Part shown: piece after piece, positions 286 to 41,153 of the stretch
Layout of the letters: the number at the start of each line of letters is the position of its first letter
How positions within the stretch are numbered: position 1 is the stretch's first letter
Assembly: GCF_000716595.1 (NCBI RefSeq)
Contig: NZ_JNXC01000029.1
Location: 1 to 64,000, forward strand
From: Saccharothrix sp. NRRL B-16314
Lineage (GTDB): Bacteria > Actinomycetota > Actinomycetes > Mycobacteriales > Pseudonocardiaceae
Direction of reading: 5' to 3'
Length of the DNA stretch: 64,000 bases
The notes under the pieces: generated by a model
What the model was told of the DNA's origin: nothing
Database searches by the model: none
The model's input: only the letters and a program-made list of their open reading frames with translations
Made by a program: the position numbers and the translations under genes

Positions 286-641
286 CGGCGCTTGGTCATC
301 GTCCCGTGCGAGCTGACTTCCAAGTGGATTGTCCCCGTTTATCGCGGGTCAGGACGCGGATTGTCGCCGGACTTGGTCGTCGAGGCCTGTAGCCGGCTGC
401 GGGCAGTTGTATGCGAGGCGGAATACCGCAAAAACCGTGCGAGTCCGACCGGTTTGCGTGCTCGCCATCCCGGTGGGTCGGGGCGTCCTGGATGAACAGA
501 AGATTCTGCGTCTACTCGTCGGATGCCGTCGTGATCACCGATCGTACCTGCGTCGATGCGGATGGAGACCGCAAAATTGCGCGTTCAGTCATGTGCGCTA
601 AGCCATTCGAGTGAGATATCGGTTCACTCCAGAGTGGCGGC
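286..641. other. Intergenic region between divergent genes, with an inverted repeat
   Basis: No convincing gene in 356 bases; the open frames on the plus strand show no protein-like composition. Close to the start of the following ATPase gene, GAGTGA at 609-614 and TCACTC at 624-629 form an inverted repeat with a 9-base spacer. This could be a binding site for a repressor of the ATPase operon. That is inference from position only. Confidence 0.35.
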
Positions 642-3600
642 ATGTTCACTCGTTCGTGGGTCGTTCGCGATGGGGTAAGACATCGCTCCGTGACAGTCGA
701 TGTTCCTACCGAGCTGCGCAAGTGGCTGACGGCGCTTAGCGACTCTGACTTTGGCGCCCTGCTCGCTGTGTGTGATCAGCTCAGGCACGCCGCGCAGATG
801 CCCCCGCCGACCAAGGACCCTCGGCCACCGGTCCGGCGCGAGTTGCGGGCCGCGCGTGCCCACGCGGCCAAGATGTCGTCGCACCAGTTGACGCGCCTTG
901 CGGTCGGCGGGTTGTCGGTCGGAGCCCGCGTGTTGAGCGCCCACTGCAAGTTCGAGCCGGAGACAGTCGGCGACCCCGACCTCGACCAACTGCGCCGGAT
1001 GCTGATCGCTCTCGGCAGTCCATTCGGCCGGTTGGTGCTGTTCGGTCTGCTGTTGGGCGACGTGCCGGCGACAGCCCTGGCGTTGCGGCACCGGAGCGAT
1101 CTCGAGGCGGCTCTCCAAGACGCCGGACGTTCACCTGTACCAGCGTTGGTTGAGGCGTTGGAGCGCCGAGGGAATCCGGCACTGGCACTTGGGAGCGACA
1201 TGACTGCGGGCGTGGCATCGATCGTTCCGAAGGTGGATCCGGAACTCTGTTCGGCTGCGGTGGACGCCATTGAGAACGACCTCGTAGTCATTCGCGACTC
1301 TGCCTCTCGATTGGCCGTCCTTCTTCGCGCTGTAGCGGATGACATTGTCATCGGCGGCGAAATGGATGGTGAGATCGACAGATCGTTGGCCGAGTACCGT
1401 CAGCAGCGCTCGGCCTTCTTCCAAGCCCTCGCCGACGTGACCGGAAAGGCCGAGAGCGCGGACTTCGACAGTGCCGGCGCATTGCTGGTGCAGTTTCGCG
1501 CTGAGGAGCTGGCGCGGAAGGAGGAAGAAGAGACCTCCAGGCAGACCACCGAACAGGCTGCCGCCGTCGCACGCATCGCCGAACTGCGTAAGCAACTCGG
1601 CGAACTCGAAGAGCTCGTCAAATCGGTACCCGGCAACGCCCGAGAGTCTTTGCAGGACGCGGCGCGTGCGGTGGAGGCTGACATCGAGCGGCTGCGGGCC
1701 ACCGCCGAGTTGCCGTTGGTCGAAACCGAGCGACTCCCGGAACCGGTCGCGACAACTGCCGGGCACTTCGGCGAGCCGGCGTCAGAGCAAGAGCCGCGGT
1801 CTGCGGAAGCCGTGGCCCCGCCGCCGATAGAGGCAGTGGACACCACGGAAACGGTGACCTCGCCGGACAGCGACGACCTGGCGATCGGATTCCCATGGGA
1901 GGAGGGGAAACCGCCGCTCGCGGTGGAGCTGGCCGGCAGCGGCAGGCTTGTCGAGGCGTACTGGGTGACCGCGATGTCCGGCGAGCCCAATCGACGCAGC
2001 GCCGTGCTGCGGTTCGCCGCAGCCGCGTACGGGATCAACAACAACGCGGACGCCACTGCGGTGTTGGCAGGTCTTGAGCTTGACGCACAGGAGCTGGCCG
2101 GTGATGCCGACGCTGCAGCGCTTGCCACCACGGCCGCCCTGCGCGCCGGCCTGATCGCGGGATGGGGCCTCCCCACGCTGACCCAGCTGCGGCCGGAACT
2201 GGTGCTCCCGGCTCGTTGGGCTGCGCTGATCGACACGACGATCGACGCCGTTCGCCGTGGCTTCCGCATCGACGACGGCTTGGGTGGGCTCCTCCAGGAG
2301 AACGACGCGCACGAGGCACGTACGGAGCTGGGCCGTCGGGCCCGTGACATGGCCGAGGAACTGCCCCGTCGCAAGAACAGCTACCAGCGTGCGACCCGGG
2401 TGTTGCAGCGGTTGATGATCACAGGCCAGCCTTTGGCCACCGCGCTGGCAGTGGTGGCGGAGTGGTCCGAAGGTACAGGGGACGGCCAAGAAGTCGGCTC
2501 CGCGCTCGCGGCGATGAACGCGCCGGGAGCGATTGACGCGATGATCGAGTCCGCCGATGCCGCCATGCGCACACCGAAACAGGCACGAGAGCCCATCGTG
2601 GCCGTTGCGCTCCGGACCTTGGTCCGTGCGATCGAGGAAGTGCGGACGATCCTGATCGAGGCCGACGCGGTGTGCAGGCGCTTGACCGCCACCCAATCGG
2701 AAGACCAGGCCGTTGCGACACGGCTGTCGCGGGCGCTGGCGGATGTCGAATCCGCCGAGCCGCCGTCGGGCATGTCCGGTGTGGCCATGGCACTGTTCCG
2801 CCGGTGGTTGCAACGGCCCAACGAGACGATCCGCGCCGGATACGCCGCTGTGGGCGGTGGGGAAACCTCGTTCAGCCTGTCCGAACCGAGCCCCGATGTC
2901 CTGCTGGTGCTGCCGGACCTTCCCAGGGACACCTGGGGGCGCCCCAACCCGGAGGACCTGCGGACGCCCGTGGTGTTGGCGGAGCTGACCCGCGAGCCGG
3001 ACCTCGAACGGGCGGTCTCCGCCTACTGCCAGCGCGGGGACCTCCGCAGCGCGCGTCGGCTGGTCGAGCTGGCGGGGGAGGGGTTCTGGGCCGTCGATCA
3101 GCCGGTGGGTCCGCTCCGCGAGATCCTGGAAGACGGCACCCGGTCGTGCACGAAGCTCCATCACGCGGCCCTCAACAGGGCGCGTGACCTCTTCGCACGC
3201 ATCCGCACCCAGAACCTCCTCGACCTCGAGGACGAGACTGCCGTCGCGGGAAAGCTGGAAGCACTGGCCACGGTGGACGACGGCGCGTTCGACGATGCGG
3301 CGGCGAGCCTGGCGCAGCTCGCGGAGGAACTGGACGCGAAGCACCGCTCCCGGGTCGAGGACCTTCGCAGCGAGATCGCGACACTGCACGTCCAGGCCGA
3401 CGACCATGATCGGATCGTTTCCCTGCTCGATGACGGGGACACCGTCACCGCGGCGGAGTTCATCGCGTTCATCCGGGCGGGCAAGCCGCTGCCGGAGCAT
3501 GTGCAGGAGGCGGCCGAGGACGTCAAGAGCTTCGCCGAGATGGTTGCCCGCCAGCACGAGGGAACGCGCGCCGGAGCGTTCGCCTGGTCCGAGCTGGCGG

Positions 3601-6176
3601 CGAGCGGAGCGGCGCTCACCCCGCTGGCGAACACAGGTGTGCAAGCGTGGGAATCGCTGAAGAACCACGACGGCCTGAGCGGGGACCGATGGGCGAACGC
3701 CGTCCGCGACATCCTGCGGACGCTCGGCCTCCAGCCCGCCACCCGTCCACAGGAGATCAACCGCGGCGCCCGGCGCGGATTCCGCAAGTTCAGGGTGCAG
3801 GGCACGCCGTCCGACGGCTCGTACATCTCGACTTTGGGATCGGCCGCGAGCAACTACACCGTGACCGTGGTGGTCGAGGAGCACAGGGGACGCCGATCGG
3901 TTCTCGACGTGCTCGGTCCCGAGGACGCCGGACGCGCGAACGTCGTCCTCTACCTGCACACGATGGACCTGCAGTCCAGGCGGGGGTTGGCAGCCGAAGC
4001 CACTCGGAGCCCGGTCCAGGCACTGGTCATCGACCCCGCGGTGATCGGATGGGTCGCGGCGAACGCACCAGGTTCCTGGCGTGCCACCCAGCGCATCACC
4101 CTGCCGTGGACGGCGCTGAACCCGTACACGCCGTTCGTCGCGGGACTGGTGCCTCCGGAGGTGTTCGTCGGCCGGGTTCGGGAGATGGCGGAGGTCATCG
4201 ACCCGAACGGCGGGCTGTTCATCTACGGCGGTCGCCAACTCGGCAAGTCGGCACTGCTGCGCCGGGTCGAGGCGACGTTCAACGATGGTGAGTACCGGTT
4301 CGCCGTCTACCTCGATCTGAAGGGCCGCGGCATCGGGGAGGCGGAGCCCGCCAGCCGGATCTGGCGCGAACTCGTGTTGGAACTGAAGAAGGCGAGCGTG
4401 CTCTCCGACCGGGTTTCCCAGGATGCCCCCGCCGACGTCGTGGTGAACCAGGTGCGGACGTGGCTCGACCAACACTCCGGCCGCCGGTTGCTCCTGCTGG
4501 CCGACGAGGCCGATGCGTTCCTCACCGCGGATTCACGCGGGACGCCCACCGCAGGCGGCGTAGCGCACTTCCCCAACGTGCTGCGCCTGAAGGAACTGAT
4601 GGAATCGACGGACCGGCGGTTCAAGGTCGTGTTCGCCGGCCTGCACCAGGTGCAGCGATTCGGGCACCTGTCCAACGTGCCGCTGGTCCACGGAGGCCCC
4701 GACATCCTGGTCGGTCCGTTGGACCAGGTCGATGCGCGCAGGCTCGTCGTGGCGCCCCTCGCCGCGCTGGGCTACAGCTTCGAGCGACCCGAACTCGTGT
4801 GGCGCTTGCTCTCGGCTACCAACTATCAAGCCAGCCTCATCCAGATCTTCTGTGAAGAGCTCGTGCGGACGCTGCACAACCGCGTGTCGCACGCCCAGGC
4901 GTTGCCGGTGCCGATCAGGGAGAGCGATGTCGAGGCGGTGGTCGGCAGCGACCGGGTACGCGCCCGCATCGCCGAACGTCTCCGCATCACGATCAACCTC
5001 GAAGACCGGTACCGCGTTCTCACCCTCGTCATCGCGCTGCTGAGCCTGAAGGACAGGTTCAGCACCGATTACGGTCCGGAGAAGCTCCTGCAGGAGGCCC
5101 GCGAGCACTGGCCGGCCGGGTTCGAGGACCTCACCGCCTCGCAGGTCAGCATCTACCTGGACGAGATGGTCGGCCTTGGCTTGCTCATCCGGCTGTCCGG
5201 CCAGAGCAGGTACGCCGTGCGGAGTCCCAACGTGGTGAACATGCTGGGCACCAAGGCGAGCCTCGAGCTGGAACTCCGGGAAACGGCGTTCGACCTGCCC
5301 TACGAATACAACCCGCGTGACGCGCGCAGGCTGCTGCTCAGCGCGCAGGGCGTCCAGAGGCGCAGTCCGCTCACCGACGGCCAACTGTTCGAGCTCGCGG
5401 CGGTCGGCGCTGCCTCGGTCGTCACCGGCACCGATGCCCTCGGCGTGGACCGTGTGCCTGCAGCGTTGAAGGACTACGCGGAGATGCGTGGTAGCCGGGT
5501 CGAGGTGCACACGTCGGTGGCCGACATCGCGAAGGCGGTGACGACGGCCGCGCGTCGCAAGAGGCCCACCGTCATGGTGGCGGACCTGCGTGATCGGACG
5601 GTGGCCGAGATCTTCAAGGTCAAGGAGCGGCTGGCCAAGGACCGACTGGCTTCCGTGCTGGTGATCGACCCCTCGGTTGCGCGGGAGGTCGGCGTGGCGG
5701 AGGGCGTGGAGCTCGTGCGACCGTCACGGTGGACGGCGGGCAGCCTGCGCAGCTGGCCGGAGTGCCCGTTCGACGTGTTGGGCTCACGGGTCCGGCTGAT
5801 CGAGGCGACCGGCGGCTGGACGGAGCTGGTGGAGGACGTCATCGCCTGGGTGGTGGTGCGGGGTGCTACTCAGGCGCAGGCGTTGGGGCGGGTCGTGCAG
5901 TGGTCCACGGACCTGGTTTGGGCGCGGAACTTCCTCGACCGGGCCGGGGTCGACCAGGCGCTCATCACGCGCATCGGGCCGTGGGTCGACTACCTCGACC
6001 CGGGCGAGGTGATCTCGACGGCCGACGTGGCCGTGATGCTCGAACTCGACCTGGGAAGAGCAATCGAGCTGCTGGACGACCTGGTCGACTGGGGAGTGCT
6101 CGACGAAAGCGCGGACGGCATCATGCTCGACCGGGTCGTGCACCGCTGCATCACCACGGTCCGCGAGAAGTCGTGA
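642..6176 (+). CDS. Very large P-loop ATPase with coiled coil, helical repeats and C-terminal winged-helix-like region
   Basis: 1,844 residues. Visible layout: helical N-terminus; Glu/Lys-rich coiled coil at about 287-355; acidic/proline linker to about 420; a long alpha-helical stretch to about 1080; a beta-rich segment; then an ATPase core. The core begins around 1173 (PPEVFVGR), with Walker A GGRQLGKS near 1196 and Walker B LLLLADEADAF near 1283. Helical and winged-helix-like segments follow, and the last 280 residues end in a small HTH-like domain. The gross layout (NTPase plus large helical arms) is that of STAND-like or AAA sensor ATPases in bacterial conflict systems, but I cannot assign a named family. 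The stop overlaps the next gene by 4 bp (GTGA), so the two are translationally coupled. No signal peptide or membrane segment is visible, so it is cytoplasmic. Start chosen at the first ATG of the open frame. Confidence 0.75.
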   Translation: MFTRSWVVRDGVRHRSVTVDVPTELRKWLTALSDSDFGALLAVCDQLRHAAQMPPPTKDPRPPVRRELRAARAHAAKMSSHQLTRLAVGGLSVGARVLSAHCKFEPETVGDPDLDQLRRMLIALGSPFGRLVLFGLLLGDVPATALALRHRSDLEAALQDAGRSPVPALVEALERRGNPALALGSDMTAGVASIVPKVDPELCSAAVDAIENDLVVIRDSASRLAVLLRAVADDIVIGGEMDGEIDRSLAEYRQQRSAFFQALADVTGKAESADFDSAGALLVQFRAEELARKEEEETSRQTTEQAAAVARIAELRKQLGELEELVKSVPGNARESLQDAARAVEADIERLRATAELPLVETERLPEPVATTAGHFGEPASEQEPRSAEAVAPPPIEAVDTTETVTSPDSDDLAIGFPWEEGKPPLAVELAGSGRLVEAYWVTAMSGEPNRRSAVLRFAAAAYGINNNADATAVLAGLELDAQELAGDADAAALATTAALRAGLIAGWGLPTLTQLRPELVLPARWAALIDTTIDAVRRGFRIDDGLGGLLQENDAHEARTELGRRARDMAEELPRRKNSYQRATRVLQRLMITGQPLATALAVVAEWSEGTGDGQEVGSALAAMNAPGAIDAMIESADAAMRTPKQAREPIVAVALRTLVRAIEEVRTILIEADAVCRRLTATQSEDQAVATRLSRALADVESAEPPSGMSGVAMALFRRWLQRPNETIRAGYAAVGGGETSFSLSEPSPDVLLVLPDLPRDTWGRPNPEDLRTPVVLAELTREPDLERAVSAYCQRGDLRSARRLVELAGEGFWAVDQPVGPLREILEDGTRSCTKLHHAALNRARDLFARIRTQNLLDLEDETAVAGKLEALATVDDGAFDDAAASLAQLAEELDAKHRSRVEDLRSEIATLHVQADDHDRIVSLLDDGDTVTAAEFIAFIRAGKPLPEHVQEAAEDVKSFAEMVARQHEGTRAGAFAWSELAASGAALTPLANTGVQAWESLKNHDGLSGDRWANAVRDILRTLGLQPATRPQEINRGARRGFRKFRVQGTPSDGSYISTLGSAASNYTVTVVVEEHRGRRSVLDVLGPEDAGRANVVLYLHTMDLQSRRGLAAEATRSPVQALVIDPAVIGWVAANAPGSWRATQRITLPWTALNPYTPFVAGLVPPEVFVGRVREMAEVIDPNGGLFIYGGRQLGKSALLRRVEATFNDGEYRFAVYLDLKGRGIGEAEPASRIWRELVLELKKASVLSDRVSQDAPADVVVNQVRTWLDQHSGRRLLLLADEADAFLTADSRGTPTAGGVAHFPNVLRLKELMESTDRRFKVVFAGLHQVQRFGHLSNVPLVHGGPDILVGPLDQVDARRLVVAPLAALGYSFERPELVWRLLSATNYQASLIQIFCEELVRTLHNRVSHAQALPVPIRESDVEAVVGSDRVRARIAERLRITINLEDRYRVLTLVIALLSLKDRFSTDYGPEKLLQEAREHWPAGFEDLTASQVSIYLDEMVGLGLLIRLSGQSRYAVRSPNVVNMLGTKASLELELRETAFDLPYEYNPRDARRLLLSAQGVQRRSPLTDGQLFELAAVGAASVVTGTDALGVDRVPAALKDYAEMRGSRVEVHTSVADIAKAVTTAARRKRPTVMVADLRDRTVAEIFKVKERLAKDRLASVLVIDPSVAREVGVAEGVELVRPSRWTAGSLRSWPECPFDVLGSRVRLIEATGGWTELVEDVIAWVVVRGATQAQALGRVVQWSTDLVWARNFLDRAGVDQALITRIGPWVDYLDPGEVISTADVAVMLELDLGRAIELLDDLVDWGVLDESADGIMLDRVVHRCITTVREKS

Positions 6177-7555
6177 AGAGCGGCCGCTCGGACTTCGGCT
6201 TGCTGCCAGGACCTCGCCGGCACTTGGACGTGCTGTCGGAGGACTTGAACAGCGGGTGGAGCTGCATCTGGCTCCTGCCGGACGACCTGGTGGACCGCGG
6301 CGTCGCCGACGAGCTCGTCGATCTCATCGAGCGTCGGGTCGACAGCGTGCGGGTGCCCCAACCGGAGGTGCGCAGGACGAGTGGGCAGCGGGCAGAGGTC
6401 CAGGCCACGGGGCCGGCCGAGGAACAGCTGCCCGCCTGGGCGCGAAGCAGGTTCGGGGTGTTCGACTGGGACGAGTCGTTCCACACCGCTTCGGTCACGA
6501 CGTTGGAGAGCACGTCCTCCGTGTCGGAGCGCCTGCTGCTCGTGTTCGAGGACCCATCCGGTGAAGTTGACGACCCGCTCGCCGTGCTCACTTCGTCGGA
6601 CTGGCTGCGGCGGAAAGTCGTCGTCGTGCGTGCCTGGGCGGAAAACGATCCGGACGACGTTGCCTCGGTGTTCACCAGGTTGACCGCCTTCTCGAAGGAG
6701 CATGGTGTTCCGCCCGACGACCGCACACGCGTGCTCGTCGCGGCCAGGCTCGGAGATCTGCCGGCCCGGCTGTTGGACAAGGTTGATCCGGTGACTACCA
6801 GGGCGCACTGGTGGTGGAGCGTGTGCGGCCGTCTCGACACGGCGGTCGTCACCACAGCTGCCCGAGGCCGGAGGACCGGGCGGGGCCACCCGCACCGGAT
6901 CGACGTGCGGGAACTGGTGACGGCGGAGGTGATCGTCGAGGTATCCGGCCCCGATCTGGCGCTTGCAGAAGGGCTGGCGTCATCATGGGATGGTCGTCGG
7001 GGGACGCTCCGCGAGCAGATAGCCGCCTTCGCGCACGCGGAGGACGACCTCGCAGCGGGTGTTCCCCGGCGGCTCCGCGGCAGTGGAGAGCGACCGACCG
7101 AAGAGCTGAGATCCGCGTGGAGCGCCGGCTCCCTGGAACTCTGGGATGGGCAGCTCCGGATCAGTCCCGCAGTCCGCGGGGCGATCGATTCGTTGGTGGA
7201 CCTGGACAACCTCGTGTGGCGGGGGCACAACCGGGCATTGATGCCGCTCATCGACGGTTGGCGCGCACGGCTTGAGGAGACGGTCCGCTCAAGGGCGAGC
7301 ACAGCCGTACTCGCCGAACTGGGCCGTGATGTCCGCGGCGGCGCGCCCGAGGGGGTGGAGGCGAACGGTCGTATCACCCTGGAACTCGGGATGATGGCGT
7401 GGGCGGTATCGACCTCCCGGGTCAGGTTGTCGCGGTCGGACAGGGAGCTGCTGTTCTGCCTGCGGGATGCGCGAAACGCACTTGCGCACCTGAGGCCACT
7501 TGACGACGAGCACGTGGACCGCATGGCCAGGCTCGTTCCCGACCGGTCATGGTGA
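6173..7555 (+). CDS. Partner of the large ATPase, with a C-terminal HEPN-type Rx4H motif
   Basis: 460 residues from the GTG that overlaps the ATPase stop codon; the open frame extends further upstream, but only inside the ATPase gene. The protein is soluble and of unknown family. Near the C-terminus residues 434-439 read RNALAH within LRDARNALAHL, the Rx4-6H pattern that marks HEPN ribonuclease or HEPN-like domains (known for that superfamily). The surroundings are helical, as expected for a HEPN fold. Tight coupling to a giant P-loop ATPase suggests a sensor/effector pair, with this protein as possible RNase effector. Nuclease activity is inference: the same short motif also occurs in non-catalytic HEPN proteins. 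Confidence 0.65.
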   Translation: MKSGRSDFGLLPGPRRHLDVLSEDLNSGWSCIWLLPDDLVDRGVADELVDLIERRVDSVRVPQPEVRRTSGQRAEVQATGPAEEQLPAWARSRFGVFDWDESFHTASVTTLESTSSVSERLLLVFEDPSGEVDDPLAVLTSSDWLRRKVVVVRAWAENDPDDVASVFTRLTAFSKEHGVPPDDRTRVLVAARLGDLPARLLDKVDPVTTRAHWWWSVCGRLDTAVVTTAARGRRTGRGHPHRIDVRELVTAEVIVEVSGPDLALAEGLASSWDGRRGTLREQIAAFAHAEDDLAAGVPRRLRGSGERPTEELRSAWSAGSLELWDGQLRISPAVRGAIDSLVDLDNLVWRGHNRALMPLIDGWRARLEETVRSRASTAVLAELGRDVRGGAPEGVEANGRITLELGMMAWAVSTSRVRLSRSDRELLFCLRDARNALAHLRPLDDEHVDRMARLVPDRSW

Positions 7556-7630
7556 CGGTGCGCCATCTTGATCTCCGCCACGCATCGACTGGCCGTCGCT
7601 TGATGTCGGCAGGCGACAGGAGTCGTTCGC

Positions 7631-7735
7631 ATGAGACTCGACGAGCTTGAGGCCCTGCGCCGGAAATACCTCGGCATGGCGATTGCTGCGAGCCGAGAAC
7701 GCGCCGCGAGGGGAATGGGAAAAGTCAAGGTGTGA
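7631..7735 (+). CDS. Possible 34-residue basic helical peptide
   Basis: ATG at 7631 preceded by ACAGGAG with 8-base spacing, a good ribosome site for such a short frame. The peptide (MRLDELEALRRKYLGMAIAA... then arginine/lysine-rich to the stop) would be amphipathic and basic. It lies between the ATPase/HEPN operon and a tRNA-like remnant. It could be a small accessory protein, a leader or the remnant of a longer gene; there is no family signature. Confidence rests on the ribosome site and composition. Confidence 0.35.
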   Translation: MRLDELEALRRKYLGMAIAASRERAARGMGKVKV

Positions 7736-7811
7736 CAACAGGGTCGAGGTGCGCCGATGTGCCTCCAACTGCACCGTCACGGCCTGCTGATTCGGCGTCT
7801 CCACCGTTGAA

Positions 7812-7846
7812 GGTCAAGGGGCGCAGACTCGAATCCTGTCATCCGG
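7812..7846 (+). other. Degraded tRNA 3' end (T-arm and acceptor remnant)
   Basis: The stretch contains GCAGA (7823-7827), a 7-base loop CTCGAAT (7828-7834) and CCTGT (7835-7839), followed by CATCCGG. This is the usual spacing of a tRNA T-arm: 5-base stem, 7-base loop holding TCGAAT, 5-base stem, acceptor strand. The closing position is mismatched (A against C) and the loop starts C rather than T, so it is not a working gene. No matching 5' half is visible upstream. Such remnants usually mark the far end of an element integrated in a tRNA gene. Confidence 0.35.
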
Positions 7847-7881
7847 TCGTGCCCTGGGAGACGGTCTGGGATGCTGGGCAC

Positions 7882-32649: not shown

Positions 32650-33885
32650 GTGACCACCCCGCACGCCTTCCCGTTGGAGCCGACCCCGATCCACGTGCCC
32701 GACGAGGTCATCGCCGACCTGCGCGCCCGTCTCGCACTGACCCGCCCACCGGTGGACGAGGGCGGTGGGGACTGGTCCTACGGCGTCCCGGCCGGCTACC
32801 TCGGCGAACTGGTCGCCTACTGGCGGGACGGCTACGACTGGCGCAAGGCCGAGGCCGCCATGAACGCCCACGAGCACTACCAGGTGGACGTCGCGGGTGT
32901 CCCGGTGCACTTCATGCGCAAACCCGGCCGCGGTCCCCGCCCGATCCCGCTGATCCTCACCCACGGCTGGCCGTGGACTTTCTGGCACTGGTCGAAGGTG
33001 ATCGACCCGCTCGCCGACCCTGCCGCGTCCGGCGGTGACCCCGCCGACGCGTTCGATGTCATCGTGCCGTCCCTGCCCGGCTTCGGTTTCCCCGGACCGC
33101 TCACCGGCTTCCCGGACGTCAACTTCTGGAAGGTCGCCGACCTCTGGCACACCCTGATGACCGAGACCCTGGGCTACGGGAAGTACGCCGCCGGTGGCTG
33201 CGACATCGGCGGGATCGTCTCCAGCCAGCTCGGCCACAAGTACGCCGACCAGCTGTACGGCATCCACATCGGCTCCGGGCTGCCGCTCGACTTCTTCAAC
33301 GGGCCCCGAGCCTGGGACTTCGCCCGGAACCGGCCCCTCACCGACGACCAGCCCGCCGACGTCCGCGCCCGCATCGTCGAGCTGGACCACCGCTGGGCCG
33401 CCCACCTCGCCGTGCACACGCTCGACGGCGCGACCCTGGCCCACGGTCTGAGCGATTCACCCGCCGGACTGCTCGCCTGGCTGCTGGAGCGCTGGAACGC
33501 CTGGAGCGACAACGGCGGCGACGTCGAGTCCGTCTTCACCAAGGACGACCTGCTCACCCACGCCACGATCTACTGGGTGAACAACTCCATCGCCACCTCC
33601 ATGCGCTACTACGCCAACGCCAACCGCTACCCCTGGGCACCCGCCCACGACCTCACCCCGGTCGTGCAGGCCCCGGTCGGCCTCACCTTCGTCACGTACG
33701 AGAACCCGCCCGGCATCCACACCGCCGACGAGCGCGTCCGGGCGTTCAAGACCGGCCCGCAGGCCGCCTACTTCAACCACGTCAACGTCACCGCGCACGA
33801 CCACGGCGGCCACTTCATCCCCTGGGAGAACCCCGACGCCTGGGTGAACGATTTGCGCCGCACCTTCCACGACGGCAGGCCCTGA
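32650..33885 (+). CDS. Epoxide hydrolase (alpha/beta hydrolase, EHN domain)
   Basis: 411 residues from GTG 32650. The N-terminal EHN domain (IHVPDEVIADLRARLALTRP, VAYWRDGYDWRKAEA) precedes an alpha/beta hydrolase core. The oxyanion motif is THGWPWTFWHW, the nucleophile Asp185 sits in GGCDIGGIV, and the catalytic His388 in DHGGHFIPWE. It should open epoxides to diols by the Asp-ester mechanism. It follows the Cox-type hydroxylase across the minisatellite. Cytoplasmic; no signal peptide. Confidence 0.92.
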   Translation: MTTPHAFPLEPTPIHVPDEVIADLRARLALTRPPVDEGGGDWSYGVPAGYLGELVAYWRDGYDWRKAEAAMNAHEHYQVDVAGVPVHFMRKPGRGPRPIPLILTHGWPWTFWHWSKVIDPLADPAASGGDPADAFDVIVPSLPGFGFPGPLTGFPDVNFWKVADLWHTLMTETLGYGKYAAGGCDIGGIVSSQLGHKYADQLYGIHIGSGLPLDFFNGPRAWDFARNRPLTDDQPADVRARIVELDHRWAAHLAVHTLDGATLAHGLSDSPAGLLAWLLERWNAWSDNGGDVESVFTKDDLLTHATIYWVNNSIATSMRYYANANRYPWAPAHDLTPVVQAPVGLTFVTYENPPGIHTADERVRAFKTGPQAAYFNHVNVTAHDHGGHFIPWENPDAWVNDLRRTFHDGRP

Positions 33886-33901
33886 ACGACCCGCCGCGAT
33901 G

Positions 33902-34744
33902 TCAGGAACGGTCGTCGGGCGTGCACGTGGCCAGTCCCGCGTCCACCGCCAGGGGTAGCCAAGTGCACAACGCGGCGAGGATGCGGGAGGGGTCGCGCCC
34001 GCAGGTGCGGGCGGTGGTCGCGGCTGCGGTGTGCAGGGGGGTGCCACCGGCGGCGCACGCGTGCAGGAAGGCGTGCTGCCAGGGCGCGAGGACGTGGACC
34101 CGGACGCGGTAGTGGGTGCGGGCCACGGCGTAGCAGGTGTCGCCGGGCTCCGGGACGGGTGGCCGGACGCCGTGGTCGGCGGCGGTGACGGTGTCGAGCA
34201 GGGCGAAGTCCAGCCGCAGCAACCGCAAGGTCGGCGGGGTGCGGACGGTCAGGTCCGGCGAGGTCATCACCGCGAACGGTGCGACGGGCTGGTGGTCGGG
34301 CTCGGTTTCCACCCCTCGGGCCCGGCGTGATTCAGCGCGTGCGCGTTCCAACCGGGCCAGCGCGGTGGGCAGCGCGTCCGGTGAGCCGGGAGGTCCGAGC
34401 GGCTGGGGCCGGGTCTCCTGGAGGAAGTCGGCGAAACCCGCGCCGAGGTCGAACATCGAGTAGGAGGTCGGGGGACGTGCCGCGACGTAACCGTCCGCGA
34501 ACAAGCCGAACACCTGGTCGCCGACGAGGGCGTGGAGGACGGGGAACTCGGCTTTGAGGCATTCGCGCAAGCGCGCGCGGTAGCCACGGGCGTAGATGTC
34601 GACGCGTTCTTCCGCTCTCAGCCGGTCGGAACCCCGGACGACGTCGGACGGCCTCGGCATCCGATCGCCGCCGTGCGCTTCCCCGGTGCCCGTGCAGGTG
34701 GTCAGCAGCCACTGCTGGAGGACGGCGAGGTCCGGCTCAGGCAT
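33902..34744 (-). CDS. DUF2063 protein, partner of the DUF692/MNIO enzyme
   Basis: 280 residues, ATG 34744, overlapping the end of the DUF692 gene by 8 bp. The N-terminal DUF2063 part is clear (LQQWLLTTCTGTG, RLRAEERVDIYARGYRARLR, ECLKAEFPVLHALVGDQVF, then YSMFDLGAGFADFL). In methanobactin and related pathways the equivalent partner (MbnC-like/HvfC) holds the peptide substrate for the MNIO enzyme (family knowledge). The C-terminal part (HVLAPWQHAFLHACAAGGTP) is a separate small domain. Third gene of the 37.6-33.9 kb operon. Confidence 0.85.
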   Translation of the reverse strand: MPEPDLAVLQQWLLTTCTGTGEAHGGDRMPRPSDVVRGSDRLRAEERVDIYARGYRARLRECLKAEFPVLHALVGDQVFGLFADGYVAARPPTSYSMFDLGAGFADFLQETRPQPLGPPGSPDALPTALARLERARAESRRARGVETEPDHQPVAPFAVMTSPDLTVRTPPTLRLLRLDFALLDTVTAADHGVRPPVPEPGDTCYAVARTHYRVRVHVLAPWQHAFLHACAAGGTPLHTAAATTARTCGRDPSRILAALCTWLPLAVDAGLATCTPDDRS

Positions 34745-35666
34745 GAGCCCGGCCGTCCGCGTGCGGCCGGGGGGACGCCACGACGCCGGTGGTGCCCGCC
34801 TTGCCCGCCTTGCCCGGCGGCACGCGCCCGGCGCGGACTTCCGCCGCCTTGGCGAGTTCGGCGACCAGGTCGGGGAACGGCGGGATGTCGGCGTCCCACT
34901 CCAGCAGGGTCGACACCCCGCCGGTCCGCTGCTGCACCAGCGCGTAGAGCGGCCACACCTCGTCGGGCACGGGACCGTCGTGGGTGTCGAGCAGGTAGTG
35001 ACCGCGATCGGCGGGGCCGGCGAGGTGGACCTGGACGACGTGCTCGGCCGGCAGGCCCCGGATGTACGTCACGGCGTCGAAACCGTGATTGGTAGCGCTG
35101 ACGTGGACGTTGTTGACGTCCAGCAGCACACCGCACCCGGTGTCCTGTGCCAGCTGGGCCAGGAACTCCCACTCGGGGATGTCGGACGCGTGGAACTCCA
35201 GGTAGCTGCTGGGGTTCTCCAGGACCAGCGGCCGGCCGAGGTGGTCCTGCACCGCCCGCACCCGGTCGGCCACGTGGGCGAGGCTGCGCCGGGTCAGCGG
35301 CATCGGCAGCAGGTCGTGGCTCGTGACGCCGTTGACCCCGGTCCAGCACAGGTGGTCGGAGATCCAGGCCGGGCGCACCCGCTCGGCCAGTTCACCCAAC
35401 TTGTCCAGGTAGCCGGTGTCCAGCGGGTCCGTGCTGCCGATGGACAGGGACACCCCGTGCATCACCACCGGGCGGTGCGCCGACACGTGGTCCAGCACGT
35501 GGGCGGCGAAACCGTGGTCGTCGAAGAAGTTCTCGCTGATGATCTCGAACCAGTCGACGCCCCACGCTTCCGGAGGGGTGTCCACCAGGTAGCGGAAGTG
35601 GACATCGCGCAGCCCCACGCCGTCACCGAGGTTCGGCAGCCCCAGGCGGGCCGTCGTGCTGCTCAC
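34737..35666 (-). CDS. DUF692-family multinuclear non-haem iron oxidative enzyme (MNIO)
   Basis: 309 residues from GTG 35666; the GTGA start overlaps the stop of the upstream ferritin-like gene. The TIM-barrel metal motifs are all there: WFEIISENFF, VVMHGVSLSIG, WISDHLCWTG, VLENPSSYLEF, CGVLLDVNNVHVSATNHGFD, VVQVHLAGPADRGHYLLDTH and LLEWDADIP. These His/Asp/Glu/Asn residues bind two or three iron ions in characterised members, which modify cysteines or other side chains of peptides (MbnB, TglH, bufferin and related enzymes; family knowledge). With the DUF2063 gene next door and a Cys-rich protein upstream, peptide modification is the likely job. Confidence 0.93.
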   Translation of the reverse strand: MSSTTARLGLPNLGDGVGLRDVHFRYLVDTPPEAWGVDWFEIISENFFDDHGFAAHVLDHVSAHRPVVMHGVSLSIGSTDPLDTGYLDKLGELAERVRPAWISDHLCWTGVNGVTSHDLLPMPLTRRSLAHVADRVRAVQDHLGRPLVLENPSSYLEFHASDIPEWEFLAQLAQDTGCGVLLDVNNVHVSATNHGFDAVTYIRGLPAEHVVQVHLAGPADRGHYLLDTHDGPVPDEVWPLYALVQQRTGGVSTLLEWDADIPPFPDLVAELAKAAEVRAGRVPPGKAGKAGTTGVVASPRPHADGRAHA

Positions 35667-37603
35667 GTCGACGGGGGGAACGCCAGCCGCACCTTGTTCG
35701 GCTGCGGTTTGGGCGCCACGGGCAGCTTGCGGTGCTCCATCACGACTTGGTAGGCGCGGTAGGCGACGTCGTAGACCTTCTCGCCGCGCTCGAACGCCAT
35801 CTCGCTGATGGGCGTGGAGGCGTTCCCCTCGCCGACGAAGTCGTACAACTGCATGGTGCCGCCCTGCGGCAGCACCTGCGAGGCCGAGATGGGTACCGCG
35901 CAGCCGCCGAAGGCGCCGCACTTGTTGTCGCCCGGAGGGGAGTACAGGGTCCGCTCGCCGTCCTGGGTCGCGTCGCCGTCGGTCTTGGCCTTCACCAGCG
36001 CGAAACCGCAGTTCCCACCGCCACCGGTCTTCTGCACGAACCCGCAGCCACCCTGGGCCTTGCACGCGTTGGACCCGCGGCAGGAGTGGAAGACGTCGAC
36101 CGCCGCGCAGTCGTTCGCGTGGCCCGTCTTGTTGGTCAGGTCGAGGCCCTGGCAGGCGTGCAGGAGCTTGGTGCCGTGGTCGACGCCCACCGCGCCGCCC
36201 AGGTCGGGCGCCTTGCGGAACAACGCCCAGCAGATCGCCATCCGGTCGCCCGAGCCGGCCATGGACGGGTAGGGGAACATCACCTTCTCGTCGGTCCAGT
36301 AGGTGTTCAGGACGGTGGTGATGCCGGCGATCGAGCCGACCGCGGCCTGGCTGATCGTCCGGTACATCGCGTCGTCGCGGCCGAGGTCGTTCATCGCCTC
36401 GGCGATCGTGGCCGGGTCCGGCAGGCCGTACTTGTCGGCCTTCTGCCACGACGCGGTGGTCAGGTCCGCGGCCTTCCACGGCCGTTGCTCGCTCTTGCGC
36501 CACTGCGGCCACGTCAGGAAGTCGTGCTGCTTGAGCAGGGCTTCGATCTCCGCGAAGCGCTCGTAGTGGTCCTTGCTGCCGTTGTCGTACCGCGCCGTGG
36601 CGTCCCTCGACTCGGCCGGGCCGCCGGTGTCGGTGTAGTCGGGGTAATCCGCCTTCAACGCGTCCAGCGAAGCCTGGTACTTGTCCTCGACCATTTCCGG
36701 GCGTGCCCTCGGCAGTTCACCGCCTTCCCCCTGGTCGGTGATGGCGCTGATCATGTCCCACACCAGCTGGAGCGAGGGCCGGGTGATGGTCGTGTCGAAG
36801 CCCGGGTACTCGCGCTTGGGGTGACCGGGTGGCTTCTCGACGTTGAACAGGTCCCGCTGCAAGGCGGCACTGTCGTAGACGTACTCCCACAGCTTCTTCG
36901 TCGGTGCGTCCTCGTAGGTCAGGTTCAGGTAGTCGTAATAGCACAGGTACATGTGCCCGATCGTGCCGAACATCGGCAGGTCCTTCTCCGTCATGCCCTG
37001 CTCCCACCGCGGGAACGGGACGGGCGGGAAGTACTTGTGCCGTGCTTCGGGTTTGATCTTCGCGCGGGCGTCCTGCTCGGGTTGCTCGATCACCCGGAAC
37101 AGGCGGGTCTGCTCCAGGTCCACCGCGCCGATGTTCACCTTGACGTCCGACGAGTCCGTGGTGTCGGTCAGGTCGACGATGTGCGGGATCACGGTCTTGT
37201 CCGGCCCGTAGCACGTCCAGCCGTGGGCGGGGTTCTGCAGCAGGGGACTGGTGAACAGCGGGGTGACGCCGAGCCGGCTTGCCAGGTTCGCGGCCAGCTG
37301 GACGTGCAGCATCTCCTCGATGAACACCGAGAAGACGATGTTGAAGGCCTTCTCGTTCGGGGTGGTCGGCTTCGCGGTGGTGGCGGAACCGGGCCACAGC
37401 CGGCCCCGGTAGAAGTCCTGGCCTTTGCCGGTGATCTGGTGCATGCCCTGGATCGAGGTCATCGCGCACATGTAGAGCGGGATCGTGAACAGCTCCACGT
37501 TCACGGCCGCCTGGGCGATCGCCCTCAACGCCGAGATGTCCGCTTTCCGGGAGCCGGCCGGCCGCGGCTTGGCGACGGTGTCGGTGGTGACGGCGTGGTC
37601 CAT
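35663..37603 (-). CDS. Ferritin-like (VioB/iminophenyl-pyruvate dimer synthase-type) protein with Cys-rich C-terminal segment
   Basis: 646 residues from ATG 37603 (GGGAAGG five bases upstream; an in-frame GTG two codons earlier would overlap that site). The N-terminal half is a ferritin-like helix bundle with carboxylate ligands in VNVELFTIPLYM and FIEEMLHVQLAANL, as in VioB/RebD N-terminal domains. Residues about 484-572 carry eight cysteines: HACQG, HANDC, FHSCRG, NACKAQGGC, GGNCG and NKCGAFGGC. The spacing resembles the NDCA...HSCAG pattern of DUF2282/bufferin-type MNIO substrates. A VRLAFPPST tail ends the protein. It is directly coupled to the DUF692 gene. Inference: the Cys-rich segment is the substrate of the MNIO enzyme, fused to an enzyme domain. 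No signal peptide is seen. Confidence 0.85.
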   Translation of the reverse strand: MDHAVTTDTVAKPRPAGSRKADISALRAIAQAAVNVELFTIPLYMCAMTSIQGMHQITGKGQDFYRGRLWPGSATTAKPTTPNEKAFNIVFSVFIEEMLHVQLAANLASRLGVTPLFTSPLLQNPAHGWTCYGPDKTVIPHIVDLTDTTDSSDVKVNIGAVDLEQTRLFRVIEQPEQDARAKIKPEARHKYFPPVPFPRWEQGMTEKDLPMFGTIGHMYLCYYDYLNLTYEDAPTKKLWEYVYDSAALQRDLFNVEKPPGHPKREYPGFDTTITRPSLQLVWDMISAITDQGEGGELPRARPEMVEDKYQASLDALKADYPDYTDTGGPAESRDATARYDNGSKDHYERFAEIEALLKQHDFLTWPQWRKSEQRPWKAADLTTASWQKADKYGLPDPATIAEAMNDLGRDDAMYRTISQAAVGSIAGITTVLNTYWTDEKVMFPYPSMAGSGDRMAICWALFRKAPDLGGAVGVDHGTKLLHACQGLDLTNKTGHANDCAAVDVFHSCRGSNACKAQGGCGFVQKTGGGGNCGFALVKAKTDGDATQDGERTLYSPPGDNKCGAFGGCAVPISASQVLPQGGTMQLYDFVGEGNASTPISEMAFERGEKVYDVAYRAYQVVMEHRKLPVAPKPQPNKVRLAFPPST

Positions 37604-37922
37604 GTTCACCTTCCCTGTCGGTGGCGTCCCGGGTGGCGCGGTCGGTGCCGGTCGGAGCGGTCGTCGGTTTCCCGCGATTCCCGCGATTCCCGCACGGATC
37701 GTTCGTTGATCTCGTGTCGCGCGAGAGGCGCATGGCGCGTGCCGTGGTGGCGGGCGGTCCTGACTCGACCATAGGGGGTGTGGTGCGATTCCCGGCGTAG
37801 CTGGAAAGGGCGAATTCCGCGTTCAGCCACACGGGCACGGGACATCCAGTTGCGTGACGCCGCACATCTCGACAGGGGGACGCATTCACCTGGAGGTGTG
37901 ACGTTTTTCAGGGATGGTGATT
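37604..37922. other. Upstream region of the ferritin-like/MNIO operon
   Basis: About 320 bases without a gene. It contains three copies of GATTCCCGC in tandem (near 37675-37695). No clear -10/-35 pair stands out. The promoter of the minus-strand operon must lie here. Confidence 0.35.
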
Positions 37923-37967
37923 CGGCGTGACTTCGGGCGCGGGCGGTGGGCTCCCGAAGTCACGCCG
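37923..37967. terminator. Rho-independent-type terminator after the kinase gene
   Basis: CGGCGTGACTTCGGG (37923-37937) and its exact complement (37953-37967) form a 15-bp stem with a 15-base loop, immediately past the kinase stop at 37973 on the minus strand. Confidence 0.75.
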
Positions 37968-37972
37968 AGGGG

Positions 37973-39631
37973 TCACTTGTCGCGCGGGTAGGCCTTCTGC
38001 ACCTCGCCCTTGAGGTTCGCCTCCAGGTACGCGCCGCCGTAGTCGTCGATCAGGTACACCCGCATCGAAGGGGTGTCGTCGATGATGTCGATGTCCACGA
38101 TCAGGTACCGCATGGTCGGTTGCGGTACGCCCAGCTCGGCCGTCGCCCGGTCGAACAGCGCGGGCAGGGCGTCCCAGTTCACCTCGTTCAGGTCGAGCAC
38201 GGCGCGGTCGGCGTCCACCCCGTCCGGACCCTGCCTGGTCGCCTTGCCGCCCTTGTACTCGAAATCGTCGAAGCCGTGCGCGACCGCGGCGGTCGGGGCG
38301 ACCGCCGACGCGCGGTCCGGCCACAGCGTCAGCTCGGACACCTTGGTGCCGCCCATCGCCTCGCCGAGCGCGCCGGCCGCCTTGCGCGCACCGGCGGGCG
38401 TGAGCAGGTCGTCCTTCACCGCGTAGGCGACCGTGGTGGTCGTCGGGCCGGCGGTCGGGACGACGTCGGACCGCGTGGTCGTCGTCGCGGTCGACGAACC
38501 CGTGGGGGAGTTCGCCGAGTCGTCCTTCTTCGCCAGGTGGACCACGAGCAGCGTGGAGGCGACGACCACCGCCACCCCGACCAGCGAGGACACCACGGCG
38601 CCCGCCCGCCTGCGCGTCTTCGGAAGCGGGGTCGGGTAGGACTGCTGGTAAACGGGGGGAAGCGGACCGCCGACCGGTGTCGGCGTCGGTCCGGACGGCC
38701 ACTGGGGGTACTGCAGCTGCGGCTGAGGACCGCTCGGCGGCCCCGGGACCGGGAACCCCGCCGGGGTGGGAGGCCCCGTGAACGGAGCCGAGTCGCGCTC
38801 GGCCGCCGCGAACATCTGGTCCAGCACCTCGCCGGTCGGCCGTTCCGCCGGGTCGTTGCGGAGGGCCGCGTTGAGCGCGGGCGCGAGGGCACCCGCGCGG
38901 CGCGGCGGCGGTACCGGCTCGGTCATCACGGCGGCGAGGGTCGCCATCGTCGTCGCGCGGCGCATCGGGTGGTGACCCTCGACGGCCACGTACAGCAGCA
39001 TCGCGAGCGACCAGAAGTCCGACCCGGTGTGCGTCTCGTCGCCGCGCAGCCGCTCCGGGGCGATGTACTCCGGTGAACCGATGACGTCGCCGGTCGCGGT
39101 GAGCTGGGTCGAGCCCTGGAGGGCGGCGATGCCGAAGTCGGTGAGCACGGCGCTGCCGTCCGTCCGCAGCAGCACGTTGCCCGGCTTGACGTCGCGGTGC
39201 ATCACGCCCGCGGAGTGGGCCGAGCGCAGCGCCGCGAGCACGTCCCGCCCGAGCCTCGCGGCCTCGACCGGGGTGAGCACACCGGCGTCCAGCCGCGCGT
39301 CCAGCGACGTGCCGCGGACCAGTTCCATGACGATCCACGGGTACGGCGAGTCGGCCGAGTCGATGATCTGGTAGATCGACACGACGTTCGGGTGCTGCAA
39401 CCTGGCGAGCGCGCGGGACTCGCGCAGCACGCGCTCCCGCAGCTGGGCGGCCATCGCCGGGTTGCCCTCGATCTGGTCGGCGTCGGCCGGGCGGACCTCC
39501 TTGATGGCCACCTCGCGGTGCAGCCCCAGGTCGAGGGCGCGCCAGACCGTCCCCATCCCGCCGCTGCCCAACCTCTCCAGCAGCTCGAACCGGCCGTCGA
39601 GGATCCGGCCGGTGTGCTCTCTCTCAGACAC
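37973..39631 (-). CDS. Membrane-anchored Ser/Thr protein kinase (PknB-like)
   Basis: 552 residues. The Hanks-type kinase domain occupies about 14-275: LGSGGMGTVW P-loop, Lys44 in VAIKE, HRDVKPGNVLL catalytic loop, DFGIAAL and APERL. A proline-rich juxtamembrane stretch follows, then one membrane helix at about 343-366 (VVSSLVGVAVVVASTLLVVH). The outside domain of about 180 residues (TATTTTRSDVVPTAG linker, then a beta-rich region) is not PASTA and not recognised. It is a receptor-type kinase sensing something outside the cell. Divergent from the M1-like gene 118 bases away. Confidence 0.93.
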   Translation of the reverse strand: MSEREHTGRILDGRFELLERLGSGGMGTVWRALDLGLHREVAIKEVRPADADQIEGNPAMAAQLRERVLRESRALARLQHPNVVSIYQIIDSADSPYPWIVMELVRGTSLDARLDAGVLTPVEAARLGRDVLAALRSAHSAGVMHRDVKPGNVLLRTDGSAVLTDFGIAALQGSTQLTATGDVIGSPEYIAPERLRGDETHTGSDFWSLAMLLYVAVEGHHPMRRATTMATLAAVMTEPVPPPRRAGALAPALNAALRNDPAERPTGEVLDQMFAAAERDSAPFTGPPTPAGFPVPGPPSGPQPQLQYPQWPSGPTPTPVGGPLPPVYQQSYPTPLPKTRRRAGAVVSSLVGVAVVVASTLLVVHLAKKDDSANSPTGSSTATTTTRSDVVPTAGPTTTTVAYAVKDDLLTPAGARKAAGALGEAMGGTKVSELTLWPDRASAVAPTAAVAHGFDDFEYKGGKATRQGPDGVDADRAVLDLNEVNWDALPALFDRATAELGVPQPTMRYLIVDIDIIDDTPSMRVYLIDDYGGAYLEANLKGEVQKAYPRDK

Positions 39632-39749: not shown

Positions 39750-41153
39750 ATGACTGTGCGCGTCCGGCGACTCACGTCGTCGGTCACCTTGCTGTTGTGC
39801 GGCCTGTCCCTGCTCCCGGCGACCGCCGCCGCGCAGGAGGACACGATCGGCGGGGATGGCTACGTCCACGTCGCGCCGAACGGCACCGTGCTGGGCGTCG
39901 ACCCGTACTACCCGACCGACGGCAACGGCGGGTACGACGTGGACCGCTACGACGTCTCCCTGTCCTACGACCCGGCGAACCGGTACCTCAACGCCAGAAC
40001 GGTCGTCACCGCCACCACGACCCAGCGGCTGAGCCGGTTCAACCTCGACCTGCGCGGGCTCACGGTGACCAGCGTGCGGGTCGACGGCGTCCCGGCCACC
40101 TTCACCCGGGCGAAGGAGCACGAACTCGTCATCACGCCCGCGGTCACCCTGCCCGAGGGCGCGTCGTTCACCGTGACGATCGCGTACTGCGGTCGGCCGC
40201 AGGCCGAGTACACCGGCCGCGGCTGGACCGGCTGGCGGACCTCGTGGACCGGGGGAGCGCTCGCCGCCGGCGCACCGCACTCGGCGACGACCTGGTTCCC
40301 GGTCAACGACACCACGGCGGACAAGGCGACGTTCGGCGTCACCGCGACCGTGCCCAACGGCTGGACGGCGGTGTCCAACGGCGTGCGGAAGTCGGTCCAC
40401 GTCGATCAGCGGACGACGGTGGCCTGGTCGGAGGACACGCCGATCGCGCCTTCGGCGACCATGATCGGCCTGGACCGGTTCACCGTGCGCGAGTCGGCCC
40501 TCTCCGCCGGCACACCGGTCTTCGACGCCTTCGCGCCGTACAGCGACGCCGGCGCGCTCGCCGCCAAGCTGCCCGCCGTGGCGGACTTCCTCACCGGCAA
40601 GCTCGGCCCGTTCCCCTACTCCTCCGCCGGCGGGCTGTACGTGCCGGACAGGTTGGGCTACGCGCACCCCTCGCAGGGGCGCCCGGTGTTCGGCGCGGGC
40701 GCCGGTGAGGCCGCGCTGGTGCAGGCGGTGGCGGCGCAGTGGTGGGGCAACAAGCTCGCCATCAAGATGTGGAAGGACCAGCCGCTGGTCGAGTCGTTCG
40801 CCCGCTACCTGCAGTGGCTGTGGGACGAGGAGCGCCACGGTGTCGCGGTCGAGCAGCGCTACCTGGCGGCCGTCGGCGCCGCCGACGAGGCGTTCTGGGC
40901 GCGCAAGCTCGCCGACCCCGGCCGGGGCAGGGAGTTCTCGGTGTCCGACAAGGGTGTGCTGATGGTGCACGCCCTGCGCAAGCGCATCGGCGACGAGAAG
41001 TTCTTCACCGTCATGCGCGAGTTCCCGGAGATCAACGACAACTGGAACCAGGGCTGGTACGACTGGGAGCTGTACACGGCGGCCGTGGCCGACATGGATC
41101 TCACGGCCTTCTTCGAGACCTGGGTGTACGGCACGACGGCGCCCACTGAGTGA
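39750..41153 (+). CDS. Secreted M1-aminopeptidase homologue that has lost its zinc site
   Basis: 467 residues, with signal peptide MTVRVRRLTSSVTLLLCGLS... ending near ATAAA. The beta-domain features of M1 peptidases are clear (YDVDRYDVSLSYDPANRYLN, FNLDLRGLTVTSVRVDG, ATTWFPVNDT). Where active enzymes have HExxH followed by QWWG, this protein reads VQAVA (residues 324-328) before AQWWGN; both His and the Glu are gone. The later Glu ligand persists in PLVESFARYLQWL. The GAMEN loop is also replaced (SSAGGLYVP). It cannot be a normal zinc peptidase and may be a binding or decoy protein. Confidence 0.85.
   Translation: MTVRVRRLTSSVTLLLCGLSLLPATAAAQEDTIGGDGYVHVAPNGTVLGVDPYYPTDGNGGYDVDRYDVSLSYDPANRYLNARTVVTATTTQRLSRFNLDLRGLTVTSVRVDGVPATFTRAKEHELVITPAVTLPEGASFTVTIAYCGRPQAEYTGRGWTGWRTSWTGGALAAGAPHSATTWFPVNDTTADKATFGVTATVPNGWTAVSNGVRKSVHVDQRTTVAWSEDTPIAPSATMIGLDRFTVRESALSAGTPVFDAFAPYSDAGALAAKLPAVADFLTGKLGPFPYSSAGGLYVPDRLGYAHPSQGRPVFGAGAGEAALVQAVAAQWWGNKLAIKMWKDQPLVESFARYLQWLWDEERHGVAVEQRYLAAVGAADEAFWARKLADPGRGREFSVSDKGVLMVHALRKRIGDEKFFTVMREFPEINDNWNQGWYDWELYTAAVADMDLTAFFETWVYGTTAPTE

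Follow-up and report, generated by a model that had tools for sequence, protein, structure and literature searches.

What does an MNIO/DUF2063 enzyme pair act on when the gene in front of it encodes a 646-residue ferritin-like protein? The question is raised by three genes on the minus strand of the window, the 64,000-nucleotide stretch of Saccharothrix sp. NRRL B-16314 DNA that was analysed: FER (35663..37603, 646 amino acids from an ATG, with an alternative GTG start at 37609), an MNIO gene (DUF692, PF05114; 34737..35666, 309 amino acids, GTG start) and the gene of a DUF2063 partner (PF09836, PME-type 1; 33902..34744, 280 amino acids). FER and MNIO overlap by 4 nt, MNIO and DUF2063 by 8 nt. 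Pfam matches exceeded the cut-offs for all three products: PF12902 (Ferritin-like) in FER (E 1.4e-18, 68 bits for a cut-off of 22.3), PF05114 in the MNIO (E 2.3e-101, 338.9 bits, profile positions 3-261 of 263, over the curated cut-off) and PF09836 in the partner (E 1.1e-18, 67.8 bits for a gathering score of 27.2). Coordinates and matches thus bear out the sequence-only reading of the locus as three overlapping genes for a ferritin-like protein, a complete DUF692 enzyme and a DUF2063 protein. The C-terminal RRE-type domain NGO1945_C reached 14 bits in the partner, below its cut-off of 27. Scanning positions 33500-38100 of the window revealed no promoters and one terminator-like site, on the plus strand, fewer than in shuffles. 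FER as a query against the contigs of the genome returned one locus.

FER consists of three parts. A folded ferritin-like part (residues about 10-470; 36194..37576, minus strand) is followed by a cysteine domain (residues about 480-572; 35888..36166, minus strand), which we propose as the MNIO substrate, and by a folded C-terminal element (residues 573-646; 35666..35887, minus strand) with strands at 582-590 and 595-604 and a helix at 610-624. FER had been described as ending in the cysteine segment; instead, about 75 folded and conserved residues come after it. With respect to the closest known relatives of this kind, 3HL1 (CC_0557, a Caulobacter ferritin-like protein) and VioB, an oxidative coupling enzyme, the aligned range ends at residue 469, and nothing in that alignment corresponds to the cysteine domain or the C-terminal element. 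The label "VioB-type" given to FER is justified only as far as PF12902 goes: with E<=0.1 as the limit, FER had no NCBIfam match, not even to VioB (TIGR04492; equivalog score 1250). The candidate dimetal ligands E37, E97, H100, E173, E293 and H346 are kept in all 121 sequences compared (the window FER and the best 120 of 905 relatives at E<=0.001), which suggests that the dimetal site is an active site.

The cysteines of FER lie at positions 46, 131, 221, 458, 484, 499, 508, 514, 520, 532, 562 and 568. Of 20000 random placements of 12 cysteines in 646 residues, 17 put eight of them inside an 85-residue span. In the same 121 sequences, Cys 484, 499, 508, 514, 520, 532, 562 and 568 are kept in 121, 115, 121, 121, 121, 118, 121 and 121, respectively, and this retention confirms the eight-cysteine segment noticed earlier; almost without exception, the best 120 of the 905 relatives retain at least seven of the eight columns. 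In the predicted structure the stretch is of low confidence (pLDDT block means of 43-71 over residues 481-570) and internal, flanked by folded parts of FER. On its own, the segment gave no match in Pfam or NCBIfam, even with a limit of E<=10. FER has no apparent signal peptide, and none of 120 FER proteins reached 1.8 in a hydropathy proxy over the first 25 residues.

A split version of the locus proved informative about this segment. In the Saccharothrix sp. NRRL B-16314 genome itself and in other genomes, a free cysteine protein of ~200 amino acids, an MNIO, a DUF2063 protein and a separate ferritin-like protein are encoded in succession (five of the six loci retrieved). Compared with the FER cysteine segment, this free protein reached an hhalign probability of 98.3% and a pairwise E of 1e-14, and the controls gave 0.1% for the N-terminal part of FER and 0.3% for a reversed template. 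It also matches BufA2 (95% over 36 columns; NF050166 at 21.2 bits, E 2.5e-4, below the cut-off of 60). Compared directly with BufA2, the FER segment reached 55% over 21 columns and did not match NF050166; reversed BufA2 templates gave 0.7% and 0.5%. The BufA2 set comprised 7 loci over cut-off (of 15 matches), 6 of them past the motif filter. The mean pLDDT of the free protein is 53.8, with confidently predicted, leader-like N-terminal helices and a low-confidence cysteine core; such a core, shared with FER, fits what is expected of a flexible substrate. The ferritin-like protein of the split clusters matches TIGR04492 far below the equivalog score (24.7 bits, E 4.8e-6), and the paralogous MNIO scores 348.5 bits with NF050167. 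For the free cysteine proteins, DUF7640 (E 0.069) and DUF7107 (E 8.3) fell below the Pfam cut-offs and were set aside; a plasmid search with the free protein as query gave no match.

Since the free protein matches both the FER segment and BufA2, these profile comparisons mark the segment as a diverged Buf2-like domain, apparently lacking a signal peptide, which very probably serves as the substrate of the MNIO. As in Buf2/BufA2 systems (the "Cys-Lys" captophorins), the genes run in the order substrate-MNIO-DUF2063 and the MNIO is above the BufB cut-off; the C-x5-C ... C-x6-C-x5-C pattern of BufA2 occurs in the free cysteine protein. Unlike BufA2, the FER domain lacks an apparent Sec signal peptide and the second cysteine of the pattern, has the following two further apart, is longer by a second cysteine block, falls below the family cut-off and is embedded in a ferritin-like protein. 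Over the first 60 residues, 0 of 120 free cysteine proteins reached 1.8 in the hydropathy proxy, versus 24 of 24 Buf1 and 5 of 6 Buf2 proteins. The likeness to DUF2282 bufferins that had been suspected did not hold: kinship with DUF2282/Buf1 (PF10048) was rejected, with an hhalign probability of 0.9% (30 loci of 32 matches, 24 past the motif filter) and no Pfam match, versus the 55% obtained with BufA2.

The enzyme pair accompanies the fusion wherever downstream DNA was readable. The order FER-MNIO-DUF2063 recurs at 17 of 19 further fusion loci, the remaining two being contig ends after FER; a Burkholderia locus (L056) was left out of this count, L055 and L056 lying at contig ends and the L056 MNIO having an odd N-terminus. 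Among 30 PF12902 genes surveyed in 22 genomes, 18 carry the cysteine domain (16 with an MNIO in the fetched flank, two at contig ends), 5 belong to split clusters with an MNIO and 7 have neither cysteine domain nor MNIO in the fetched stretch. The same cysteines with no MNIO nearby, which the sequence-only reading had named as evidence against itself, were found at none of the 17 loci with readable downstream DNA, two more being cut by contig ends. Together with the free homologue in the precursor position in the same genome and the BufA2 profile kinship, this supports its proposal that the cysteine segment is an MNIO substrate inside a larger protein.

The MNIO of the window belongs to the BufB subfamily (NF050167, 343.7 bits for a curated cut-off of 310). 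In the tree, a single clade (100/99) holds 16 of the 17 rows of fusion MNIOs. At the proposed catalytic Asp the motif reads EWDA; its last place is Asp in 24 of 41 bufferin-locus rows, and Ala also in four Buf1-adjacent MNIOs (L096, L099, L101 and L104) and in the split locus L062. As Asp has been reported for the Cys-Lys (BufB2) type at the place where the fusion MNIOs have Ala, the cysteines chosen by the latter may differ.

Known MNIO substrates had been taken to be small separate peptides, which sections 14 and 15 of PMC12452194 contradict: the Buf1 precursors described there reach 835 residues, and the fusions given in that paper include Buf1|Cytochrom_C|FGE-sulfatase, MerC|Buf and Buf_EGKC|EF-hand_5. 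FER resembles these in having a putative MNIO substrate domain within a bigger protein. It differs in that none of the fusions listed there is named ferritin-like and that FER matches none of the Pfam and NCBIfam bufferin models tried. The word "ferritin" is absent from the main text of PMC12452194, and our literature searches found no report of an MNIO substrate fused to a ferritin-like partner. The TIGR04222 membrane proteins paired with an MNIO in Actinomycetota are likewise protein-size putative substrates with a Cys-rich segment, C-proximal in their case. Unlike FER, they form a membrane protein family with a Gly/Ser/Cys tail, and their MNIO sits on a branch distant from the BufB-type rows. 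One such pair is also present in the Saccharothrix sp. NRRL B-16314 genome. Judged by its description in Table 2 of PMC12452194, adjamnio-I (signal-peptide-less, 122-293 amino acids, 8 or more cysteines, preceding an MNIO, with PME-type 2 partners) could be of the same family as the free cysteine protein; in contrast to adjamnio-I, the partner of the latter is a DUF2063 protein over the Pfam cut-off. According to section 19 of that paper, signal-peptide-less substrates go with PME-type 2 and not with DUF2063, the DUF2063 type accompanying substrates with signal peptides. FER and the free cysteine protein, with their DUF2063 partners, depart from this reported correlation.

Gene order, homology, conservation and the split/fused pair are direct observations, and we propose the following mechanism from them. 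FER would carry a diverged Buf2-type bufferin domain set between the ferritin-like bundle and the folded C-terminal element. With the DUF2063 protein as its guide, the BufB-type MNIO would oxidise some of the conserved cysteines while FER is in the cytosol; by analogy with characterised MNIO/DUF2063 systems, 5-thiooxazoles are the likeliest products. Neither excision nor export would follow, the mature product being the modified ferritin-like protein. A bufferin-related segment built in beside a Cys-modifying enzyme pair argues that FER probably receives a chemically made metal site rather than releasing a small peptide. The new thiol-heterocycles may form a metal site, copper-type perhaps, acting jointly with the dimetal site; it is the co-occurrence of the two that suggests cooperation, and the split clusters would divide the two functions between two proteins. 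Several observations count against this reading: the FER segment by itself matches no Pfam or NCBIfam model and reaches just 55% with BufA2, the fusion MNIOs differ from the Cys-Lys type in their Ala, no copper gene turned up among the flanking proteins scanned, and the pairing of a substrate lacking a signal peptide with a DUF2063 partner runs counter to PMC12452194. We give the reading, with no peptide released, about an even chance. Possible, though rather doubtful, is that the thiooxazoles are a built-in protein-derived metal cofactor required for a ferritin-like oxidase activity, the MNIO serving enzyme maturation and the split clusters supplying this cofactor in the form of a distinct protein subunit.

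The ferritin-like part might instead be a second tailoring oxidase. Once the MNIO had acted, its dimetal site would further oxidise or crosslink the modified cysteine domain, working in cis where the two are fused and in trans where they are split; the fused form would then be a precursor that brings its own enzyme with it. Fused and split arrangements also occur in borosins, and the finding of the same two parts in both states is consistent with this idea, as are the leader-like helices of the free protein and the distant kinship of the split-cluster protein with VioB (E 4.8e-6 with TIGR04492; PMC9705886). A 1:1 fusion would however be wasteful for a catalyst. Moreover, the cysteine core lies between folded parts, and no recurring neighbour family, protease or exporter appeared among the 19 proteins scanned, mostly flanking ones (L045, L049, L011, L012, L053, L010, L006 and the window); a peptide product is thus not evident, and we consider this explanation unlikely. 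Single occurrences in the neighbourhoods were a peptidase-M1-like gene at 39750-41153 of the window, on the opposite strand and past a kinase gene, and, at L045, a Peptidase_M10_C/RTX protein encoded upstream of FER, neither seen at other loci, as well as a Trans_reg_C regulator (L012) and a pyridine-nucleotide oxidoreductase (L049) downstream.

It is distinctly improbable that the modified domain is a self-sufficient binding site for copper or some other soft metal, in cytosolic storage or detoxification, with the bundle mainly a scaffold, store or delivery device and no interaction between the sites. Bufferins and EGKCG peptides do bind copper according to PMC12452194, PMC13097082 and PMC12538549, and FER has no apparent signal peptide, but the invariance of the six proposed ligands suggests an active site, and no metal-resistance gene was seen among the 19 proteins scanned. 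Metal-efflux, DoxX and sigma factor families were not seen among these proteins either. Finally, a plain metal-binding or disulfide domain that stays unmodified, with the MNIO acting on something encoded elsewhere, would fit the failure of the FER segment alone to match a bufferin model, but is very improbable given the MNIO-DUF2063 linkage at every locus with readable downstream DNA, the homologue in the precursor position and the BufA2 kinship.

MNIO/DUF2063 pairs are very common, with over 24,000 loci (PMC13097082, section 7). The characterised products in the cited papers (bufferin 1, oxazolin, fontiphorin and bulbicupramide) all bind copper and are peptides or resemble peptides. Fused MNIO substrates were already known; what appears new here is the ferritin-like fusion partner. 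The fused and split architectures offer a natural two-way test, and a putative substrate domain within a ferritin-like protein, together with its natural split counterpart, suggests that MNIO chemistry also serves to mature enzymes or metal proteins.

The three genes are as the sequence-only reading had described; the overlaps are 4 nt between the gene for FER, the 646-residue ferritin-like (PF12902) protein with an internal Cys segment (window 35663-37603, reverse strand), and the MNIO (DUF692) gene, and 8 nt between the MNIO and DUF2063 genes. Eight of the 12 cysteines of FER lie within residues 484-568, a clustering this tight being obtained in 17 of 20000 random placements. Among 7992 sequences scored, 905 were relatives of FER at E<=0.001. 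In a set made of the window protein and the best 120 of these 905, Cys484, 508, 514, 520, 562 and 568 were kept in 121/121 sequences, Cys532 in 118 and Cys499 in 115, and all six proposed dimetal ligands were present in 121/121. The genera listed for the best 120 include Saccharothrix, Actinosynnema, Actinokineospora, Caulobacter, Myxococcus and Spartinivicinus, with others. The C-terminal PPST of FER homologues (window 35666-35677) is almost invariant, P644 and S645 fully and P643 and T646 nearly so; this end is possibly a recognition site.

The distribution of the fusion is rare and patchy: it was found in 3/297 genomes from the family to which the window belongs (counting its own), in 2/398 from a sample centred on Burkholderia genome G297 (counting G297) and in 14/299 from the family of genome G553. 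We fetched every fusion locus of the three genome samples, together with those of two Pseudoalteromonas plasmids, which makes 19 without the window; L012 and L013 are near-identical in sequence. The order FER, MNIO, DUF2063 on one strand was found in 17 of them; at the other two (L054 and L055), the contig stops after FER. Seven of the eight cysteines were present in 19/19 of these FER proteins and C499 in 17. At the Caulobacter-type locus L045, a 2598-residue RTX/Peptidase_M10_C and cadherin-like protein (63-7859) is encoded directly upstream of the fusion operon; none of the other scanned loci showed it.

There are three MNIO genes in the window's genome. One belongs to a paralogous split cluster on contig C8 (L006, 5422-8954), which encodes a free 208-residue Cys protein, an MNIO, a DUF2063 protein and a separate PF12902 ferritin-like protein. 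Another, on contig C37 (L004, 293-2286), follows a TIGR04222 protein with a Cys/Gly/Ser-rich tail (81.8 bits against a cut-off of 43), a pair of known kind. With the own genome included, the free Cys protein occurs in 2/396 genomes of a phylum sample and 4/150 of a family sample; it has 412 relatives at E<=0.001, and the best 120 all keep eight cysteines. Six split-type loci were fetched, L063 through its MNIO, and five (L006, L062, L063, L064, L065) have the full four-gene order. The sixth, L066, has an MNIO over the BufB (bufferin MNIO) cut-off and a DUF2063 gene without an adjacent ferritin-like gene; its free-Cys-protein homologue (6904-7308) keeps the surrounding motif with just two cysteines, and may either have decayed or serve as a substrate whose modified residues are others. 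As a proxy that gives a lower bound, contigs were matched by their lengths: 17/55 contigs of at least 5 kb with the free Cys protein, and 0/77 FER contigs, recur among the 120 best relatives of the separate ferritin-like protein, 119 of which entered the comparison. In Nocardiopsis gilva, the spacing of tags CDO52_19695 and CDO52_19710 agrees with two intervening genes.

As a control, we examined 30 PF12902 genes in 22 fusion and split-cluster genomes, all picked for having a Cys domain. Eighteen of the genes carry the Cys domain: 16 have an MNIO within the flank that was fetched, which reaches 1.5 kb from the domain match, and two lie at contig ends; five are split-cluster genes with an MNIO present; the remaining seven have neither Cys domain nor MNIO within the flank, where a more distant MNIO would escape detection.

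Profile-profile comparison matched the FER Cys segment to the free Cys protein (98.3%, pairwise E 1e-14, 72 columns), the N-terminal part of FER giving 0.1%. The free Cys protein matched the bufferin precursor family BufA2 (95%, E 3.8e-8, 36 columns), the FER segment reaching just 55% (E 1.2e-4, 21 columns). Against DUF2282, the segment scored 0.9% and the free protein 0.2%; the known pair DUF2282-BufA2 gave 96.6%, and composition-preserving reversed templates 0.05-0.7%. The ferritin-like parts of the two architectures also matched (99.1%, E 5e-19; reversed 0.1%), with a template that also included non-cluster PF12902 proteins, and the alignment pairs E37, ExxH 97/100, E173, the QGEG Glu and the HYxxF His. 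Fused and split clusters are therefore built of the same four parts. Borosins, too, have fused and split forms. That the four parts may function jointly is an argument from gene fusion.

The MNIO of the window exceeds the BufB cut-off and aligns to 3bww across the HG/SDH/EN/LDVNN/NHG/HxAG/DTH/ExD motifs. According to PMC13097082, FonB uses Asp249 as its catalytic base, and the residue that follows it (Phe250, replaced by Asp in Cys-Lys BufB2) has a part in determining which Cys context is accepted. The ExD-x position, placed via the alignment to 3bww, would correspond to this pair. The residue after ExD is Ala in 18/18 fusion MNIOs, window included; in split-cluster MNIOs it is Asp in 4/6, with Ala and Glu in the other two, and in bufferin-locus rows Asp in 24/41 and Ala in four (copies counted). 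In a tree of 62 rows (68 less six copies; L013 left out), 16/17 fusion rows fall in a single clade (support 100/99) and the six split rows in a separate one (98/96); all 17 fusion rows as one group have just 64/82, and the node that joins the fusion and split rows to L056 and to four Buf1-adjacent rows has weak support (86/52). L056 is a Burkholderia MNIO on a short contig (2285-3319), with the fusion-type EWDA motif; its N-terminus is unusual, the first 40 positions of the profile being absent.

MNIO precursors of large size and fusions are described in the main text of PMC12452194; the word "ferritin" is absent from that text and from the main texts of PMC13097082 and PMC12538549. Among the matches listed for the main texts of papers open in PMC, we found no report linking MNIO/DUF692 with ferritin, ferritin-like proteins or VioB; one paper has "ferritin-like" solely in the title of a reference, and ten others listed are on medical or nanoparticle subjects. 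As given in the main text of PMC12452194, substrates with a signal peptide go with PME-type 1 partners (DUF2063) and those without with PME-type 2, whereas the window DUF2063 protein, over the Pfam cut-off, adjoins a substrate without apparent signal peptide.

It is very probable that the FER Cys segment is the MNIO substrate. As to its role, the main rival holds that the ferritin-like part tailors the Cys domain in cis, which we consider rather unlikely; VioB is an oxidative coupling enzyme. The reading that we prefer, with about an even chance of being correct, is that the modified Cys domain would take part in the function of the ferritin-like protein.
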